Shown: positions 17,774 to 48,571 of the stretch, one piece after another | Layout of the letters: each line of letters starts with the position of its first letter | Numbering within the stretch: the stretch's first letter is position 1 | NCBI RefSeq assembly: GCF_900108365.1 | Contig: NZ_FNWQ01000001.1 | Coordinates: 496,001-560,000 of the forward strand | Source of the DNA: Chryseobacterium culicis | Lineage (GTDB): Bacteria; Bacteroidota; Bacteroidia; Flavobacteriales; Weeksellaceae | DNA: 64,000 bases | Reading direction: 5' to 3' | Translations under genes and position numbers: made by a program | Notes under the pieces: generated by a model | The model's input: the letters and a program-made list of their open reading frames with translations, nothing else | Told to the model about the DNA's origin: nothing | Database searches by the model: none

Positions 17774-20446
17774 CTAAAGCCACTGTCCGAATTTTCTGAT
17801 AAACCATTGTTTAACGAGCTGTGTTACCATACAATAACCTGTAAGAATTGCTGCTAAATAGGGGAAGTAGCTCAGTGGTAAAGGCTGCATTTTAAGATAT
17901 ACGGCCATTGGAGTGAAAGGAATGAGAATTCCGATCAGCATGATTAAACTTGTTAACGCTACTACCGGCGTGGCGGCCCAGCTTTGGATGAATGGAATTT
18001 TTTTGGTTCTGATAATATGAACAATCAGAGTCTGGGACAATAAACCTTCCACAAACCAGCCTGTCTGAAACAAATTTTGTTGTTCCGGTGTATTGGCTTT
18101 GAAAATAAAAAACATTACCACAAACGTTACGTAATCAAAAATGGAACTTAGCGGTCCTATATACAGCATAAATTTTTTGATGCTTCCGGCTTCCCATTTT
18201 TTAGGGGTTTCCAGAAAGTCTTTATCCATGGTATCCCAGGGAATGGATGACTGAGAAACATCATAGAGTAAATTCTGGGTCAGAATCTGTAACGGAAGCA
18301 TAGGCAGAAACGGAAGCAGCGCACTGGCCCCAATCATACTGAACATATTTCCGAAATTGCTGCTCGCGGCCATTTTGATATACTTGACGATGTTCCCGAA
18401 GGTTCTTCTTCCATAGATGACGCCGCTTCGAAGGACCATCAGATCTTTTTCCAGCAGGATGATATCCGCACTTTCCTTAGCGATGTCAGCTCCGGTATCA
18501 ACAGAAATTCCTACATCTGCTTCTTTAATAGCTGCTGCATCATTGATTCCGTCCCCCATAAAACCAACGGTATGGCCTTTAGCCCGTAATATTTTTACAA
18601 TGCGCTGTTTCTGCAGCGGGCTTACCTTGGCAAAAACAGAATAATGATCCATATCTTTACAAAGCTCCTCGTCACTCATTTTCTCCAGTTCCTCACCCAG
18701 CATAATAGAATTGATAGGGATTCCAACATCATGACCTATTTTTTTAGCAACAATATCATTGTCTCCGGTTACTACTTTTACCTCTATACCCAGTTTGTGC
18801 AATGCTTTGATGCTCGGTTCTGCAGAAGGTTTTGCCGGATCGAGAAATCCCATAAATCCTGTGAGGATAAGATTCTTTTCATCGGCTACAGAATAATTTA
18901 ATGGATGATCACCCTCAAATTCTCTTATGGCAATCAGTAATACACGTTGACCGTCGGCATTCAGTTTTTCAGACATTCTGATAATCTGCTGCTTCATAAG
19001 ATGATCTAACGGAACGATATTGTCATTTTCTATGTGCAGGCTGTGATCTTCTCCCGGATCCAGAGCATATTGACATAACGGAAGCATTTCTTCTACAGCT
19101 CCTTTGCATATCATCAGATGTTTTCCCTGGGAAGTATTCAGAATGACAGACATTCTTCTCCTTTCAAAATCAAAAGGAATTTCATCTACCTTTTGGTAAA
19201 GTTCATCAGCTTTCATGAGATTGTGAACTTCAGCATGATCCAGAACGGCCTGATCCAAAAGATTTTTGAGGCCTGTCTGATGAAAACTGTTGAGGTAACC
19301 CCATTTCAACACCTCATCATCTTCAATACCGCGAACGTTGAGGTGAGTTTCCAGTACGATTTTGTCCAGGGTAAGAGTTCCGGTTTTATCAGTACATAGA
19401 ATATCCATGGCACCAATATTCTGAATAGCATTCAGTCTTTTAACAATGACTTTCTTTTTGCTCATATTTACTGCTCCTTTGGCGAGATTTGCAGTAACAA
19501 TCATCGGAAGCATTTCAGGAGTTAATCCTACCGCAACAGCAATGGCAAATAATAAGGCCTGCATCCAGTCTCCTTTTACCAATCCGTTGATCAGGAAAAT
19601 GACGGGTGTCATGATCAGCATAAATCTGATCAGCAGATAACTCACTTTATTGACTCCGATATCAAAGGCAGTTTCGGGTCTTTTAGAAACCAGACTTCTG
19701 CTGATGCTTCCGAAATAGGTGAAAATACCGGTATTGGCCACCACAACAGTTGCTGAACCGCTTACCACATTGGTCCCCATAAAACAGATATTCTGCAGGC
19801 TTAAGGGATTGAGCTCTTTGGCCTCTTTGATAGGAAGTGCACTTTTCTCCACTGGAAGAGCTTCCCCTGTCAGGATAGATTCGCTGATGAAAAGATCTTT
19901 GCTCTTAAGAATTCTGCAGTCGGCCGGAACCATATCACCCGCAGACAGAATAATAATATCCCCGGGAACAATTTCAGTTATTTCTATTTCTTTGCTTTCA
20001 TTAAATTTTCTTTTGGTGAGACAGCTTGTCCTTACCATCTTCTTTAATGTTTCTGCGGCTTTATTGCTTCTGAATTCCTGAAAAAACCTCAACACTGTAC
20101 TGAATAGCAGCATAAACGAAATTATAACAGTGGTACTGAAATCTTTCTCTCCGTCAGGAACAAGAATTGCGTCTATAAACAATGAAATGACAGCAATACA
20201 GGCCAGGATATAATTAAACGGATTAAAAAAAGAATGGGCAAACTGTTTCAGCCATGAAGGAGCCTTTTGGGCAGCAATTTCGTTTTTACCATAAATTTTC
20301 AGACGGTCTTTTACCGTGTTTTCGCTGAGACCTTCTTCTGAGGTTTCCAGCAGGGCATAAATCATTTTTTCATTCCCAGCTGCAGCTTCTTTCAACTTTA
20401 CAAGAGCTGCAGAATTAAGATTTTTGTTGGAAGATTTTTTTAACAT
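17774..20446 (-). CDS. mgtA: Magnesium-translocating P-type ATPase
   Basis: An 890-residue P3B-type ATPase that imports Mg2+ with ATP hydrolysis at the inner membrane. Seen: cation ATPase N-terminal domain (GLSENTVKDRLKIYGKNEI), the actuator loop (ILTGEALPVEK), the TM4 motif AVGLTPEMLPMIV that is typical of MgtA, the phosphorylation site CTDKTGTLTLDK near residue 350, the hinge FMGDGINDAAAIKEADVGISVD, and the C-terminal membrane helices with NLLYDVSQSSIPWD, another MgtA hallmark. It starts 24 bp after the end of the MgtC-like gene, so the pair forms an operon. Confidence 0.95.
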   Translation of the reverse strand: MLKKSSNKNLNSAALVKLKEAAAGNEKMIYALLETSEEGLSENTVKDRLKIYGKNEIAAQKAPSWLKQFAHSFFNPFNYILACIAVISLFIDAILVPDGEKDFSTTVIISFMLLFSTVLRFFQEFRSNKAAETLKKMVRTSCLTKRKFNESKEIEITEIVPGDIIILSAGDMVPADCRILKSKDLFISESILTGEALPVEKSALPIKEAKELNPLSLQNICFMGTNVVSGSATVVVANTGIFTYFGSISRSLVSKRPETAFDIGVNKVSYLLIRFMLIMTPVIFLINGLVKGDWMQALLFAIAVAVGLTPEMLPMIVTANLAKGAVNMSKKKVIVKRLNAIQNIGAMDILCTDKTGTLTLDKIVLETHLNVRGIEDDEVLKWGYLNSFHQTGLKNLLDQAVLDHAEVHNLMKADELYQKVDEIPFDFERRRMSVILNTSQGKHLMICKGAVEEMLPLCQYALDPGEDHSLHIENDNIVPLDHLMKQQIIRMSEKLNADGQRVLLIAIREFEGDHPLNYSVADEKNLILTGFMGFLDPAKPSAEPSIKALHKLGIEVKVVTGDNDIVAKKIGHDVGIPINSIMLGEELEKMSDEELCKDMDHYSVFAKVSPLQKQRIVKILRAKGHTVGFMGDGINDAAAIKEADVGISVDTGADIAKESADIILLEKDLMVLRSGVIYGRRTFGNIVKYIKMAASSNFGNMFSMIGASALLPFLPMLPLQILTQNLLYDVSQSSIPWDTMDKDFLETPKKWEAGSIKKFMLYIGPLSSIFDYVTFVVMFFIFKANTPEQQNLFQTGWFVEGLLSQTLIVHIIRTKKIPFIQSWAATPVVALTSLIMLIGILIPFTPMAVYLKMQPLPLSYFPYLAAILTGYCMVTQLVKQWFIRKFGQWL

Positions 20447-37962: not shown

Positions 37963-39444
37963 TTAAATATCTTCGAAACTCTTCCTGATCTTCTCCACAG
38001 CATTCTTCATGCTCAGATTAAAATGTTCTTTCTCCAGCCTTACCGGCGGAGCCTGTCTCACTTCGCAATCAGCAATGCTGCAGGATTCACAGGTAACACC
38101 TACATTGATGGTTTTTAACGAAGAAGACTTTATAAAACTTATTTTTTTGATGGTTTGTGAGTTCAGTAAGATACCAAGACAGTAGCTTCTGTTGCTTCCG
38201 TCCGAAAAAGGATTCTTTTGTGATGTTGAGATCACCAGATAGCTTATTCCCTGATCTTTATAATGAGAAATTTGCGCATCTGTCAGCGTTTCATTTTCCT
38301 TTAAATGATCAAGGTTTTTCACAGCAATCCATCTTCTGCAGTAGTGTTCGTTGGTTGCGTTGGCATGAGGAGCCTGCTGATGGTTCAGATGAAGCTCTTT
38401 TAAGATCTGGATTTTGTCCGAATTTTTCTTTTTTACCAGACATAAATAAAACAGATCTTTGATTCCCATTTCAGCTGACAGAATATTGGTAAGACGGTAA
38501 TAAAAAGTTTCCGGCGAATGGGTGAAACTGTTGATAAGGCCCTCGAAACTTTGAGGTTCCCATGTATTTTGCTGAAAGAATTCCGATGCTTTTTCAATAA
38601 GAGGTTCCTTCGAAATTAAAAGGGCTCCTGCAAAATAAGAGGCATAAAAGTTATTCAGAATTTCCTCAAAGCTTCCGAAGTCAAGCCACGAATAAGTATT
38701 GGGGCGATTTTTTAATTCCAGAACATTGAATCCGATTTCCTTCGCAAGAATAAAAGTCTTCTGATCCTTTTCCAGCTTTTGGTTCAGCAGTACTAATTTT
38801 TTCTCAGAAATAAAAAGAGACCGGAGGTTATCCAGTGTTCCGAATTTTTCAAAATCTTCAGACTGAATGGTGTAGCTGAACTTTTCTGTCAGAATGTTTT
38901 CCAGAATATCAGATTTTAAATTTTTCCCGGTCGGTAACTTATTTTCCCGGGTAAACTGGCTTACTTTTTCCTCAATCTCCGGAAAATAATTATCATACAA
39001 TTCCTGAAATGACCGTAAGACAGCAAAGTAAAATCTTTCTTTTCCAAGATTATAATTCTGAGAAATTTCAATCAGTGCATTGATAAAGGCAGTTACCTTT
39101 TTCGGGGCATCACTTATGATGCTGATGAGGTTGTTTTTATTAATTCCGAACAATTCCAGCGGAACTTCTTTAAAGAAATCAGAATGAAGAATTTCATTGA
39201 AAGGAGCGAGACTCTTATCCAGTTTAGTAGAAACCAGATCATCAAAAGTGCAGTTCAGGGCTTCAGAAAGCTGAATGATTTTATCATGTTTGGGATATTT
39301 TTTTCCATTCTCAATTTCGTTGAGGTAAGATTTTGATAATCCTGTCTTTACAGCAAGATCCTGCAGAGACCAGCTTTTCTTTTGTCTCTGCTGCTTCAGT
39401 TTCAGCCCGAAAACTGTTTTGATATAGTCGCTTTCTGAATTCAT
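37963..39444 (-). CDS. RamB/ScfR-like XRE-family regulator of the glyoxylate shunt
   Basis: A 493-residue cytoplasmic regulator. Residues about 10-67 are an XRE helix-turn-helix (LKQQRQKKSWSLQDLAVKTGLSKSYLNEIENGKKYP). The long middle part (ILAKEIGFNVLELKNRP, ASYFAGALLISKE) resembles the IrrE-like region of short-chain fatty acyl regulators such as RamB and PrpR, and the C-terminus has the ScfR-type YCRRWIAV and a cysteine cluster GVTCESCSIADCEVRQAPP. RamB and PrpR control aceA/aceB and propionate genes in actinobacteria. Here the gene is divergent from aceB and aceA, so the same job is likely. The clustered cysteines could bind a metal or Fe-S cluster (inference). Its own promoter is nearly leaderless. 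Confidence 0.85.
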   Translation of the reverse strand: MNSESDYIKTVFGLKLKQQRQKKSWSLQDLAVKTGLSKSYLNEIENGKKYPKHDKIIQLSEALNCTFDDLVSTKLDKSLAPFNEILHSDFFKEVPLELFGINKNNLISIISDAPKKVTAFINALIEISQNYNLGKERFYFAVLRSFQELYDNYFPEIEEKVSQFTRENKLPTGKNLKSDILENILTEKFSYTIQSEDFEKFGTLDNLRSLFISEKKLVLLNQKLEKDQKTFILAKEIGFNVLELKNRPNTYSWLDFGSFEEILNNFYASYFAGALLISKEPLIEKASEFFQQNTWEPQSFEGLINSFTHSPETFYYRLTNILSAEMGIKDLFYLCLVKKKNSDKIQILKELHLNHQQAPHANATNEHYCRRWIAVKNLDHLKENETLTDAQISHYKDQGISYLVISTSQKNPFSDGSNRSYCLGILLNSQTIKKISFIKSSSLKTINVGVTCESCSIADCEVRQAPPVRLEKEHFNLSMKNAVEKIRKSFEDI

Positions 39445-39448
39445 TACC

Positions 39449-39456
39449 CAAATATA
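39449..39456 (-). promoter_or_regulatory. -7 promoter element of the RamB-like gene
   Basis: Minus strand TATATTTG ends 4 nt before the ATG at 39444, so the mRNA is probably leaderless. Confidence 0.65.
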
Positions 39457-39465
39457 AATAATAAG

Positions 39466-39481
39466 ATGCGATTATTCGCAT
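39466..39481. promoter_or_regulatory. Palindromic operator 1 (ATGCGA-N4-TCGCAT)
   Basis: Perfect inverted repeat placed over the expected -33 zone of the RamB-like gene's own promoter, hence a candidate autoregulatory site. It shares the GCGA/TCGC core with operator 2, whose centre is 35 bp away. Confidence 0.65.
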
Positions 39482-39500
39482 AATGATTTTTAAAATATTT

Positions 39501-39516
39501 TAGCGAACGTTCGCTA
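39501..39516. promoter_or_regulatory. Palindromic operator 2 (TAGCGAACGTTCGCTA)
   Basis: Perfect 16-bp palindrome ending 18 bp before the aceB -7 element, over its expected -33 zone. Candidate control site for aceB-aceA. Confidence 0.7.
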
Positions 39517-39534
39517 TTTGTGAATATTTTTATT

Positions 39535-39542
39535 TATGTTTG
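39535..39542 (+). promoter_or_regulatory. -7 promoter element of aceB
   Basis: TATGTTTG matches TAnnTTTG. It lies inside the longest reading frame (GTG at 39520), so the ATG at 39571 is the better start. Confidence 0.65.
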
Positions 39543-39570
39543 TACTATCAAATCACAAAATCAACAGGTT

Positions 39571-41148
39571 ATGGAAACAAGGACACAATTAGAAATAAAG
39601 TCACAGAAGCAGTTTGAGGAAGTATTTACTCCGGATTTGGTGGATTTTCTCATTGCTCTTCATCAGAACTTCAATCCTGCAAGAATTGAACTTTTAGAGG
39701 AAAGAAAAAAAATACAGCATAGTTTTGATCATGGAAATCTTCCTGAGTTTCTAATGGAAACAGAAAACATCCGAAACGGAAATTGGGTATGTTCTCCGCT
39801 TCCTGAAGATTTGCAGGACAGAAGAGTAGAAATCACAGGACCTGTTGATCGTAAAATGATCATCAATGCTTTAAACTCTGGAGCCTCTGCTTTTATGGCT
39901 GATTTTGAGGACAGCAGCTCGCCGGTATGGGAAAACTGTATTCAGGGACAGATTCATCTTACGAATGCTGTTAACGGGACTATTGATTTTATTAACGAAA
40001 AAGGAAAAGCCTATACCCTTAATGAAAAAACAGCTGTTTTGCAGGTCCGGCCGCGTGGTCTTCATCTTCCGGAAAAGCATATTGAAATCAATGGAGAGAA
40101 AGCTTCCGGTTCACTGACTGATTTTGGAATATATTTTTTCAGAAATGCCAAACAGCTTCTTGAAAAAGGCAGTGGACCCTATTTTTATCTTCCCAAACTG
40201 GAACATTTTAAAGAAGCCCGCTGGTGGAACGAGGTTTTTGTTTTTTCCCAAAACTATCTGGGAATTCCGGAGGGAACCATTAAAGCGACTGTTCTGATAG
40301 AAACCATTACCGCTTCATTTCAGATTGATGAAATTTTATTTGAGTTAAAAGAACACAGTGCAGGACTGAATTGCGGAAGATGGGATTATATTTTCTCGTA
40401 CATTAAAAAACTCAGAAATTTACCTGAATTTATTGTTCCGGACAGAGATCAGGTGACCATGACTTCCCCTTTTATGAGCGCTTATTCGAAACGAGTAATA
40501 GAAATATGCCATAAAAGAAATGTACACGCAATTGGTGGAATGGCAGCGCAGATTCCGGTAAAAGATGATGATAAAGCTAATAATGCTGCTTTTGAAAAAG
40601 TAAGAAATGATAAAGAGCGGGAGGTGAAAAATGGTCATGACGGAACGTGGGTAGCCCATCCGGCATTGGTAGCGGTAGCAAAAGAAATTTTTGACCAGTA
40701 TATGCCTTCCCAAAATCAGATTGATAAAAAATTTGAATACCATATTACAGAAAATCAGCTGCTGGAAATCCCGAAAGGAGAGATTACCGAAAAAGGAGTC
40801 CGGAAAAATATCAACGTAGGAATTCTTTACCTTGAAAGCTGGCTGATGGGAACAGGTGCTGCTGCCATCTATCATCTTATGGAAGATGCTGCTACAGCAG
40901 AAATTTCAAGAACCCAGATCTGGCAGTGGCTGAAAAATGAAGCCGTACTCAGCGATGACAGAACTTTAACCCGCAGTATGGTACTGCAGTGGGAAAAAGA
41001 AGAAATGGATAATATTGAAAAGTATGTAGGTGAAACCCGTTTCAAGAATGGAAAATTCAATCTTGCCAAAGAACTTTTCAATGAGCTTATTTTCTGTGAA
41101 AAATTTGAGGAATTTCTGACCCTTAAAGCATATCCTTTTATTGAGTGA
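39571..41148 (+). CDS. aceB: Malate synthase A
   Basis: Condenses glyoxylate with acetyl-CoA to malate, the second glyoxylate-shunt enzyme. The start METRTQLEIKS gives 525 residues, normal for the A isoform; the upstream GTG is excluded by the promoter. Seen: NALNSGASAFMADFEDSSSPVWENCIQGQ near 92-120, LQVRPRGLHLPEKHI near 157-171, the signature ELKEHSAGLNCGRWDYIFSYIKK near 257-279 and KNGHDGTWVAHPALV near 352-366, and the active-site aspartate region further on (LMEDAATAEISRTQIWQWL). It is followed 123 bp later by aceA on the same strand and controlled from the shared divergent region with the RamB-like gene. Confidence 0.96.
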   Translation: METRTQLEIKSQKQFEEVFTPDLVDFLIALHQNFNPARIELLEERKKIQHSFDHGNLPEFLMETENIRNGNWVCSPLPEDLQDRRVEITGPVDRKMIINALNSGASAFMADFEDSSSPVWENCIQGQIHLTNAVNGTIDFINEKGKAYTLNEKTAVLQVRPRGLHLPEKHIEINGEKASGSLTDFGIYFFRNAKQLLEKGSGPYFYLPKLEHFKEARWWNEVFVFSQNYLGIPEGTIKATVLIETITASFQIDEILFELKEHSAGLNCGRWDYIFSYIKKLRNLPEFIVPDRDQVTMTSPFMSAYSKRVIEICHKRNVHAIGGMAAQIPVKDDDKANNAAFEKVRNDKEREVKNGHDGTWVAHPALVAVAKEIFDQYMPSQNQIDKKFEYHITENQLLEIPKGEITEKGVRKNINVGILYLESWLMGTGAAAIYHLMEDAATAEISRTQIWQWLKNEAVLSDDRTLTRSMVLQWEKEEMDNIEKYVGETRFKNGKFNLAKELFNELIFCEKFEEFLTLKAYPFIE

Positions 41149-41271: not shown

Positions 41272-42552
41272 ATGAAAACAAGACAAGAACAAATCCAGGA
41301 CCTGGAGCAGGACTGGCTGACAAATCCACGCTGGAGCGGTGTAAAAAGACCATACACAGCAGAAGAAGTTTTAAAACTCCGCGGATCTTATACCATAGAA
41401 TATACCATTGCTACAGAGATGGCTAAAAAATTCTGGGATAAGCTGAATACTCAGGATTATGTGGCAGGGCTTGGCGCACTGACCGGTAATCAGGCTGTGC
41501 AGGAAGTAGACGCCGGACTTGAAGCTATTTACCTTTCCGGCTGGCAGGTAGCTGCTGATGCCAATTTATCAGGGGAAATGTATCCGGACCAGTCATTATA
41601 CCCTGCCAATTCAGTGCCTTCTGTAGTAAAAAAAATAAATAATGCACTGTTAAGAGCAGATCAGGTACAGTCTGTGAGCGGAACAGGAAATAAAGAATAT
41701 CTGGTACCGATCATTGCAGATGCGGAAGCTGGTTTCGGAGGTAATCTGAATGCTTTTGAACTGATGAAACAGATGATAGAAGCGGGAGCAGCCGCCGTAC
41801 ATTTTGAAGATCAGCTTTCATCAGCCAAAAAATGCGGACACTTAGGAGGGAAAGTATTAGTACCCACTCAGGAAGCCGTGAATAAACTCATTGCTGCCCG
41901 TCTGGCTGCTGATGTATTGGGCGTTCCAAGTCTTATTATTGCAAGAACAGATGCGGATGCGGCAGATCTGCTGACCTCCGATATTGATGACAGGGATAAA
42001 AAATTTGTAACGGGAGAAAGAACTTCCGAAGGATTTTATGTAGTGAAAAACGGAGTAGAGCAGGGCATCGACAGAGGTTTGTCTTATGCACCCTACGCAG
42101 ATCTGATCTGGATGGAAACCTCAAATCCTGATCTCGGGCAGGCCAGAAGTTTTGCAGAAGGAATTCATGCCCAATTCCCGGGTAAAATGCTGGCTTATAA
42201 CTGTTCTCCATCATTTAACTGGGCGGCAAGGCTGAGCGTAGAGGAAATGTCTACGTTCAGAGAAGAGCTGGCTAAAATGGGCTATAAGTTCCAGTTTATT
42301 ACCCTTGCGGGATTCCATGCTTTGAATACAGCAATGTTTGAATTGGCTTTAGCGTATAAAGAAAGAGGAATGGCCGGATATTCCGAACTGCAGGAACGCG
42401 AATTTGCATTGCAGCAGAAAGGATTCAGAGCGGTGAAGCATCAGTCTTTTGTAGGAACAGGATATTTTGATGAAGTACAGAATATTGTTACCAATGGTTC
42501 CTCAGCTACTGTAGCAATGAAGGATTCTACAGAAACAGCACAATTTCATTAG
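41272..42552 (+). CDS. aceA: Isocitrate lyase
   Basis: Splits isocitrate into glyoxylate and succinate, the entry to the glyoxylate shunt, allowing growth on acetate, fatty acids and compounds that yield only acetyl-CoA. The 426 residues match bacterial ICL1 length. The active-site motif KKCGHLGG (Cys near residue 189) is intact, as are [10 protein letters not shown] near 145, [26 protein letters not shown] near 224, and [11 protein letters not shown] near 306. The region between aceB and aceA holds short AT-rich stretches with TGGTTGCTGGTT-type repeats but no terminator, so cotranscription is likely. Confidence 0.97.
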
Positions 42553-48339: not shown

Positions 48340-48571
48340 AAAGCGTAAGGTCAAAGAGGAATTGTGAATAGTCAATTCGCTTTAATTGTCAATTTTTTCA
48401 TCATCGGAATCAAAAAAAAAACAGATTATTATTTTTGCTGAGGGAAACGTATTTGCGAACGTTATAAGGAGCTAGTAAAAAACTTTGCGGATATTGCGTT
48501 TATAATATTGACTATTAGAAGAGCGCACCATCATTAATACTTTTTACATTGTACATTTTACAATTATATCA

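Follow-up and report, generated by a model that had tools for sequence, protein, structure and literature searches.

In a 64,000-nucleotide stretch of the Chryseobacterium culicis genome (contig NZ_FNWQ01000001.1, positions 496,001 to 560,000; here called the window), the gene for a ScfR-type regulator stands back to back with aceB, and aceA is the next gene after aceB (Table 1). The intergenic sequence between the regulator and aceB (39445-39570) contains two palindromes, box 1 and box 2, whose cores read GCGAACGTTCGC (39503-39514) and GCGATTATTCGC (39468-39479), respectively. The box centers are 35 bp apart, and the cores are 23 bp apart. Because the same word adjoins the same regulator in most relatives, even where the neighboring gene has changed, we consider the palindromes to be the probable operator of the divergent regulator, with a probability of roughly 0.85 based on comparative sequence analysis.

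The coordinates and spacing of the two palindromes had been reported in an earlier note on this DNA and were confirmed by a sequence check. Based on the positions of the predicted -7 elements, box 2 covers the -33 zone of the regulator promoter and box 1 covers that of the aceB promoter, as the note had also proposed. In a genome-wide motif search, TAGCGAACGTTCGCTA was found at a single place in the 4.9-Mb genome with up to three mismatches allowed. The pattern GCGA-N4-TCGC occurred at five sites, namely, both boxes and three sites within open reading frames (ORFs), and its reversed control pattern occurred 18 times.

Table 1. Features of the regulator-aceBA locus and of the regulator protein (nucleotide positions are those of the window)
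Feature	Position	Strand	Details
ScfR-type regulator gene	37963..39444	-	493-aa product; divergent from aceB
aceB, malate synthase A	39571..41148	+	TIGR01344, 784 bits (cutoff, 594.5)
aceA, isocitrate lyase	41272..42552	+	NF011645, 743 bits (cutoff, 562)
Box 2, ATGCGATTATTCGCAT (ATGCGA-TTAT-TCGCAT)	39466..39481	none	Over -33 zone of regulator promoter
Box 1, TAGCGAACGTTCGCTA, putative main operator	39501..39516	none	Over -33 zone of aceB promoter
Predicted -7 element of regulator promoter, TATATTTG	39449..39456	-	4 nt before regulator ATG
Predicted -7 element of aceB promoter, TATGTTTG	39535..39542	+	Upstream of aceB
GTGAA word, possible degenerate half-site	39520..39524	+	17 bp from box 1 GCGAA, within aceB promoter spacer
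XRE-type helix-turn-helix (HTH)	Residues 16-70		PF01381 (HTH_3), 52.5 bits (cutoff, 23)
M78/IrrE-like domain	Residues 199-318		PF06114, 27.6 bits (cutoff, 22)
ScfR C-terminal domain	Residues 364-470		PF09856, 23.8 bits, 26.5 in genome scan (cutoff, 24)
Candidate cluster ligands	Cys369 and C452-X2-C455-X4-C460		Alignment of 26 homologues

Distribution of the palindrome word

We searched 148 genomes of the family, with the regulator recognized at an E value of ≤1e-20 and aceB at ≤1e-40. The regulator was found in 82 genomes and aceB in 79, every one of which also encodes the regulator (79/79). The exact 12-mer GCGAACGTTCGC is present in 76 of the 148 genomes, as a single copy in each; 72 copies lie in the regulator locus, and the remaining four lie within ORFs of regulator-less genomes (G130, G095, G132, and G045). 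Ten family regulators without the exact 12-mer carry GCGAAAATTCGC, GCGAACATTCGC, GCGAACTTTCGC, GCGTACGTTCGC, or, at locus L083, GCGAACGTTCAC. The central two bases of the box 1 core vary without the palindrome being kept (GCGAAACTTCGC and GCGAAAGTTCGC). An order sample of 246 genomes, partly the same as those of the family sample, yielded the regulator in 54 and the exact 12-mer in 46, again once per genome. Based on coordinates, 42 of these copies are next to the regulator and three are in ORFs of regulator-less genomes (G130, G095, and G160). The last, in G221, is directly upstream of aceB, with the regulator on another contig.

For counts across the Bacteroidota, we dropped loci L001, L084-L087, and L141 as well as same-genome duplicate loci, leaving 151 regulators that were reduced to 93 representatives of <90% identity; G568, a partial match in the phylum sample, was left out. 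Of the 93 representatives, 80 have GCGAA-N2-TTCGC no more than 350 nt ahead of the regulator, down to 32% identity (shuffled mean over 20 rounds, 0.1). The count reaches 84 if GCGTA is allowed and 85 within 700 nt, and the most distant set has the core upstream in 24 of 30 cases. The conservation in relatives that the earlier note had put forward as a test therefore holds for box 1 throughout the phylum sample, but a whole box 2 is found mainly in one clade.

Another set consisted of relatives on named contigs (the best 80 of 481); it overlaps the other samples and so is not independent of them. It includes Chryseobacterium, Epilithonimonas, Kaistella, Cloacibacterium, Elizabethkingia, Flavobacterium, Polaribacter, Winogradskyella, and other genera. 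Of these best 80, 78 have the word at a distance of up to 600 nt, and 79 have a divergent aceB. One exception is Cloacibacterium rupense (L199), described below; the other, Flavobacterium gillisiae (L251), has a one-mismatch word, and aceB was not found in its locus. A record named Sphingobacterium chungjuense (L196) encodes a Chryseobacterium-like regulator 84% identical to that of the window, suggesting either transfer or a misnamed genome.

The word also accompanies the regulator where aceB has been lost or replaced. At three family loci (L064, L076, and L078), the regulator and palindrome are kept, and aceB persists just as relics (that of L064 was seen at an E value of 1e-3 only). In the distant families f30/f48, an AMP-binding acyl-coenzyme A (acyl-CoA)-ligase-like gene occupies the divergent position, based on Pfam in L152 and L158 and on sequence likeness in L148, L153, L154, and L155. 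At three further loci from distant Bacteroidota (L157, L160, and L164), the divergent gene is adenylate-kinase-like, the latter two by family search. All nine loci with a replaced divergent gene, six ligase-like and three adenylate-kinase-like, contain the operator word. This persistence through aceB loss and replacement supports autoregulation.

Where the genes part, the word remains at aceB. G221 carries the regulator (L114) on one contig and aceBA (L279) on another, with the exact palindrome located ∼55 nt away from the start of aceB. In Cloacibacterium rupense (L199), 940 nt separate the regulator from the palindrome, which has stayed on the side of aceB, and the gene between them encodes a 206-aa beta/gamma-crystallin-domain protein (PF00030, 38.3 bits; cutoff, 25). 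These arrangements support control of aceBA, which would operate in trans there. As a separate observation, the aceB relics of L064, L076, and L078 are the same internal segment, upstream of the regulator, and this segment holds the inverted repeat AGGCTCAC...GTGAGCCT.

As judged from half-site positions, the second box is clade specific, with a whole palindrome 35 bp off in the Chryseobacterium line and half-sites 17 to 18 bp off elsewhere. Box 2 is found as exact GCGA-N4-TCGC at 14 of 15 genus loci, and its TCGC half is at -27/-28 in 16 of 28 wider-clade representatives (shuffled mean, 1.3). The GTGAA word recurs at +16 to +18 in 25 of these 28 (shuffled mean, 0.18) and in 0 of the 57 other core-bearing representatives. 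In the other family clade, CGAA is at -16/-17 in 11/12 (shuffled, 0.4) and TTCG at +24 to +26 in 5/12 (0.15). At those offsets, f7/f15 have CGAA in 4/9 (0.17) and TTCG in 3/9 (0.07), and the distant set has CGAA in 8/25 (0.43) and TTCG in 10/25 (0.26). Both types are weak in f3/f2/f4: for the 35-bp type, TCGC was found in 3/11 (shuffled maximum, 3) and GCGA at -34 to -36 in 3/11 (maximum, 2), and for the 17- to 18-bp type, CGAA was found in 2/11 (maximum, 2) and TTCG in 0/11. L096 carries GCGAA four times as direct words in 17-bp steps. On a quick tree of the 93 regulators, with 23 of 90 inner branches open, the spacing labels cluster: the 35-bp label requires 11 changes versus 21.4 when shuffled and the 17-bp label 12 versus 26.2, and 0 of 500 shuffles were as low. 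The tree does not give the order of the spacing changes, because 28 rows have the core only.

A second target proposed in the earlier note, the half-site GCGAACGTT at 48455 upstream of an MmcB-like gene, was rejected. The word exists there, and also at 19331 in the window, but it is not kept in relatives. The MmcB-like gene is present in 25 of 25 genus genomes. Its upstream sequences (160 nt each) were taken at 20 loci including that of the C. culicis genome itself, 17 of which were readable and 3 of which were not; the exact word occurs in the C. culicis genome only and in 0 of 16 readable relatives (19 tried). The closest relative of the word is GCGAACATT in L260, with one mismatch and in a similar place. 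Upstream of the MmcB-like gene, both 48420-48520 and the corresponding sequences of L260-L263 are AT rich and contain TTGCGAA/TTTGCGG words several times over, and they look like a dispersed repeat rather than an operator.

The regulator and its predicted promoters

Based on profile searches and structure modeling, the regulator is ScfR-like with a fold like that of Mycobacterium tuberculosis PrpR (MtPrpR) and stands outside the RamB equivalog (NF038139, 36.3 bits; cutoff, 700). The earlier description of it as a RamB-like regulator therefore holds for the likeness to ScfR proteins but not for RamB equivalog membership. It was the sole ScfR match in a profile scan of the genome at E values up to 10. 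Among 26 aligned homologues, C369 is invariant (26/26, down to 32% identity), C452, C455, and C460 are each conserved in at least 90%, and the HTH stretch S37-K55 is strongly conserved. According to the available part of the MtPrpR report, the [4Fe-4S] ligands of that protein are Cys363 and 447-C-X2-C-X4-C-455 (PMC6765138), and alignment against this description identified the four cysteines of the regulator as their counterparts. The alignment profile matched PrpR structures in the PDB at an E value of about 5e-5. A structure model from 25 aligned sequences reached a predicted local distance difference test (pLDDT) score of 76 and a predicted template modeling (pTM) score of 0.70, versus a pLDDT of only 38 for a single-sequence prediction. 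Its top match was MtPrpR (Foldseek E value, 2.4e-11; Z, 22.9; root mean square deviation, 4.2; 279 residues aligned within 137-467), and PprI/IrrE came next among full-domain structural matches (Z, 12.6 to 13.8).

Bacteroidota promoters have the consensus -33 TTTG/-7 TAnnTTTG, with which the placement of both predicted promoters in the window agrees. A TAnnTTTG element is ≤12 nt from the regulator ATG in 32 of the 93 representatives, 29 of which have a gap of 4 or 5 nt (shuffled mean, 1.2). With the -7 element so near the start codon, the regulator mRNA is probably leaderless, and this trait is probably conserved. On the aceB side, we counted TAnnTTTG-like elements past the box 1 core at offsets picked after an earlier look at the data. 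Among the clade representatives, 23 of 28 have such an element 20 or 21 nt away (shuffled mean, 0.58); the distance is 22 or 23 nt in 10 of 11 from f3/f2/f4 (0.39) and 20 to 23 nt in 7 of 9 from f7/f15 (0.31). Since this distance is constant in three of five groups, box 1 appears to be fixed over the -33 zone there. A fixed place fits a repressor and would also be compatible with an activator that contacts the polymerase.

A proposed circuit and its alternatives

In our view, these comparisons are best read as a ScfR-type acyl-CoA switch that is autoregulated and acts through a local operator. The conservation of the word, its near uniqueness in the genome, its co-occurrence with the regulator, and the regulator's anatomy (fold and cysteines) lend strong support to the core of the earlier note's proposal, that such a circuit controls aceBA in Bacteroidota through an operator of its own. 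By binding both palindromes in the intergenic region between the two genes, the regulator would govern its own expression as well as that of aceBA. With two half-sites (GCGAA and TTCGC) per palindrome, the pair would offer four, so a tetramer like that of MtPrpR would be suitable. One complex could act on both promoters, since box 1 keeps a constant distance to the -7 element of aceB and box 2 overlies the promoter of the regulator. Homology predicts that the regulator contains a [4Fe-4S] cluster and that its ligand is an acyl-CoA, either acetyl-CoA or a related ester, which would report the supply of acetate or fatty acids. We slightly prefer repression relieved by acyl-CoA, given that the -33 zones, and in several clades the promoter spacer as well, are covered by conserved sites. 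More broadly, the Bacteroidota may share a local acyl-CoA/iron-sulfur (Fe-S) switch with a fixed GCGAA half-site and a tetrameric, often leaderless regulator. Its second-pair spacing would be rewired between clades, its operator would follow either the regulator or aceB, and one operator per genome would switch on the shunt. We advance this full picture tentatively, at slightly below even odds.

Several observations weigh against these proposals. The core is missing within 350 nt of the regulator in 9 of the 93 representatives. An inserted gene displaces it from the L033 regulator, L083 has a core with one mismatch, and the L169 core is at 508 nt; L142, L159, L165, L170, and L171 have no core in 350 nt for no apparent cause, and L114 also has none within that distance. 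Kinship inflates all such counts even below 90% identity. The TCGC half of box 2 is missing in 12 of 28 clade representatives. A TAnnTTTG-like -7 element at a fixed distance from the box 1 core was found in 0 of 12 representatives of the other (distant) family clade, and the deepest set gave just a weak signal (6/25; shuffled mean, 1.0; maximum, 4). For the protein, the ScfR domain score is borderline on either side of its cutoff, L164 does not have the C-X2-C-X4-C motif, and a single-sequence search of the PDB returned HTH domains only and no PrpR. Lastly, the regulator sides of L114 and L199 have no whole palindrome; autoregulation is thus not universal and may have been lost at these two loci.

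The strongest alternative retains the same regulator and operator and makes the regulator an activator of aceBA, with box 1 setting it beside the polymerase and box 2 serving autorepression. We consider this a serious possibility that nevertheless falls clearly short of probable. It would match Paracoccus denitrificans RamB (class 2, ScfR family), which, in the available part of its report, is likewise divergent from the genes for malate synthase and isocitrate lyase, has two intergenic boxes, and activates the divergent ms-icl operon, with both boxes required (PMC10370305). An activator would also suit the constant distance that three of five groups keep between box 1 and the -7 element, and, judged by eye, the -33 hexamer of aceB is a poor one in the window. 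On the other hand, Corynebacterium glutamicum RamB, of the same domain family, is described in the accessible text as a repressor of aceA and aceB with negative autoregulation (PMC4448153), and the conserved secondary half-sites within the promoter spacer of several clades suit repression.

Ownership of the palindromes by another transcription factor, such as a global regulator or the SOS repressor, is unlikely. A palindrome alone names no protein, some LexA sites look similar to GAAC/GTTC words, and the position of the G221 word at aceB, away from the regulator, counts against the regulator as owner. However, the word tracks the regulator gene across the phylum sample, is single copy in the family and order samples, and stays by the regulator after aceB loss or replacement. 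In addition, the Bacteroidetes SOS sites given in the available part of a published account are CTAA-N5-TTAG, GGA-N5-TCC, and TTAC-N5-GTAA (PMC8565304). It is more improbable still that the palindromes are RNA hairpins (terminators or leaders): a terminator scan flagged both boxes (3 found, 0.8 expected), but they lie upstream of both predicted transcript starts, their stems have only 6 pairs, and the central two bases vary with loss of the palindrome, as in GCGAAACTTCGC and GCGAAAGTTCGC. Short inverted repeats are frequent in AT-rich intergenic DNA, but a chance origin of the boxes is excluded by their rarity in the genome and their conservation.

Relation to known ScfR systems

The autoregulated switch proposed here appears to be a variant form of a known type of ScfR circuit, with a Bacteroidota word that is apparently undescribed in the literature searched. 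In the part of the Paracoccus report available, the boxes have an 18-bp spacer and, as inferred from oligo 46, 14-bp words starting with TGACAA (PMC10370305), whereas Chryseobacterium has GCGAA-N2-TTCGC-type cores 23 bp apart. The two near-identical boxes with an 18-bp spacer that mark class 2 RamB are thus absent here, the sequence and core spacing being different. The C. glutamicum site AA/GAACTTTGCAAA is found upstream of many genes according to the same partial source as above (PMC4448153), in contrast to the Chryseobacterium word, which is confined to one intergenic region and chance ORF copies. Reading by eye, we did not find AA/GAACTTTGCAAA in the regulator-aceB intergenic sequence.

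MtPrpR (6CYJ, 6CYY, 6CZ6, and 6D2S) shares with the regulator the fold, the Cys plus C-X2-C-X4-C arrangement, and very few operator copies per genome, as far as the available text describes it (PMC6765138). Its 17-bp operator, TTTGCAAA-N1-TTTGCgAA, lies upstream of prpD and icl1. The tetramer and CoA were demonstrated for MtPrpR and would extend to the Chryseobacterium regulator by homology. The MtPrpR structures were solved without the DNA-binding domain (PMC6765138). The half-site GC(A/G)AA may be common, in part, to the actinobacterial sites, although the half-sites are arranged differently there. Neither GCGAA-N2-TTCGC as an operator nor any Bacteroidota RamB/ScfR operator was found in the literature searched, which covered few subscription papers. 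For the literal 12-mer, the titles among the matches listed mostly concerned immunostimulatory or osteogenic oligonucleotides, and none concerned such an operator.

The palindromes would give the Bacteroidota, for which the literature searched offered no such site, an exact operator of a switch in central carbon metabolism, and a genome sequence would be enough to predict glyoxylate shunt control from the 12-bp word. For a point that the MtPrpR structures leave open, namely, how DNA is read by a tetrameric Fe-S/acyl-CoA regulator, the two types of spacing would constitute a natural experiment.

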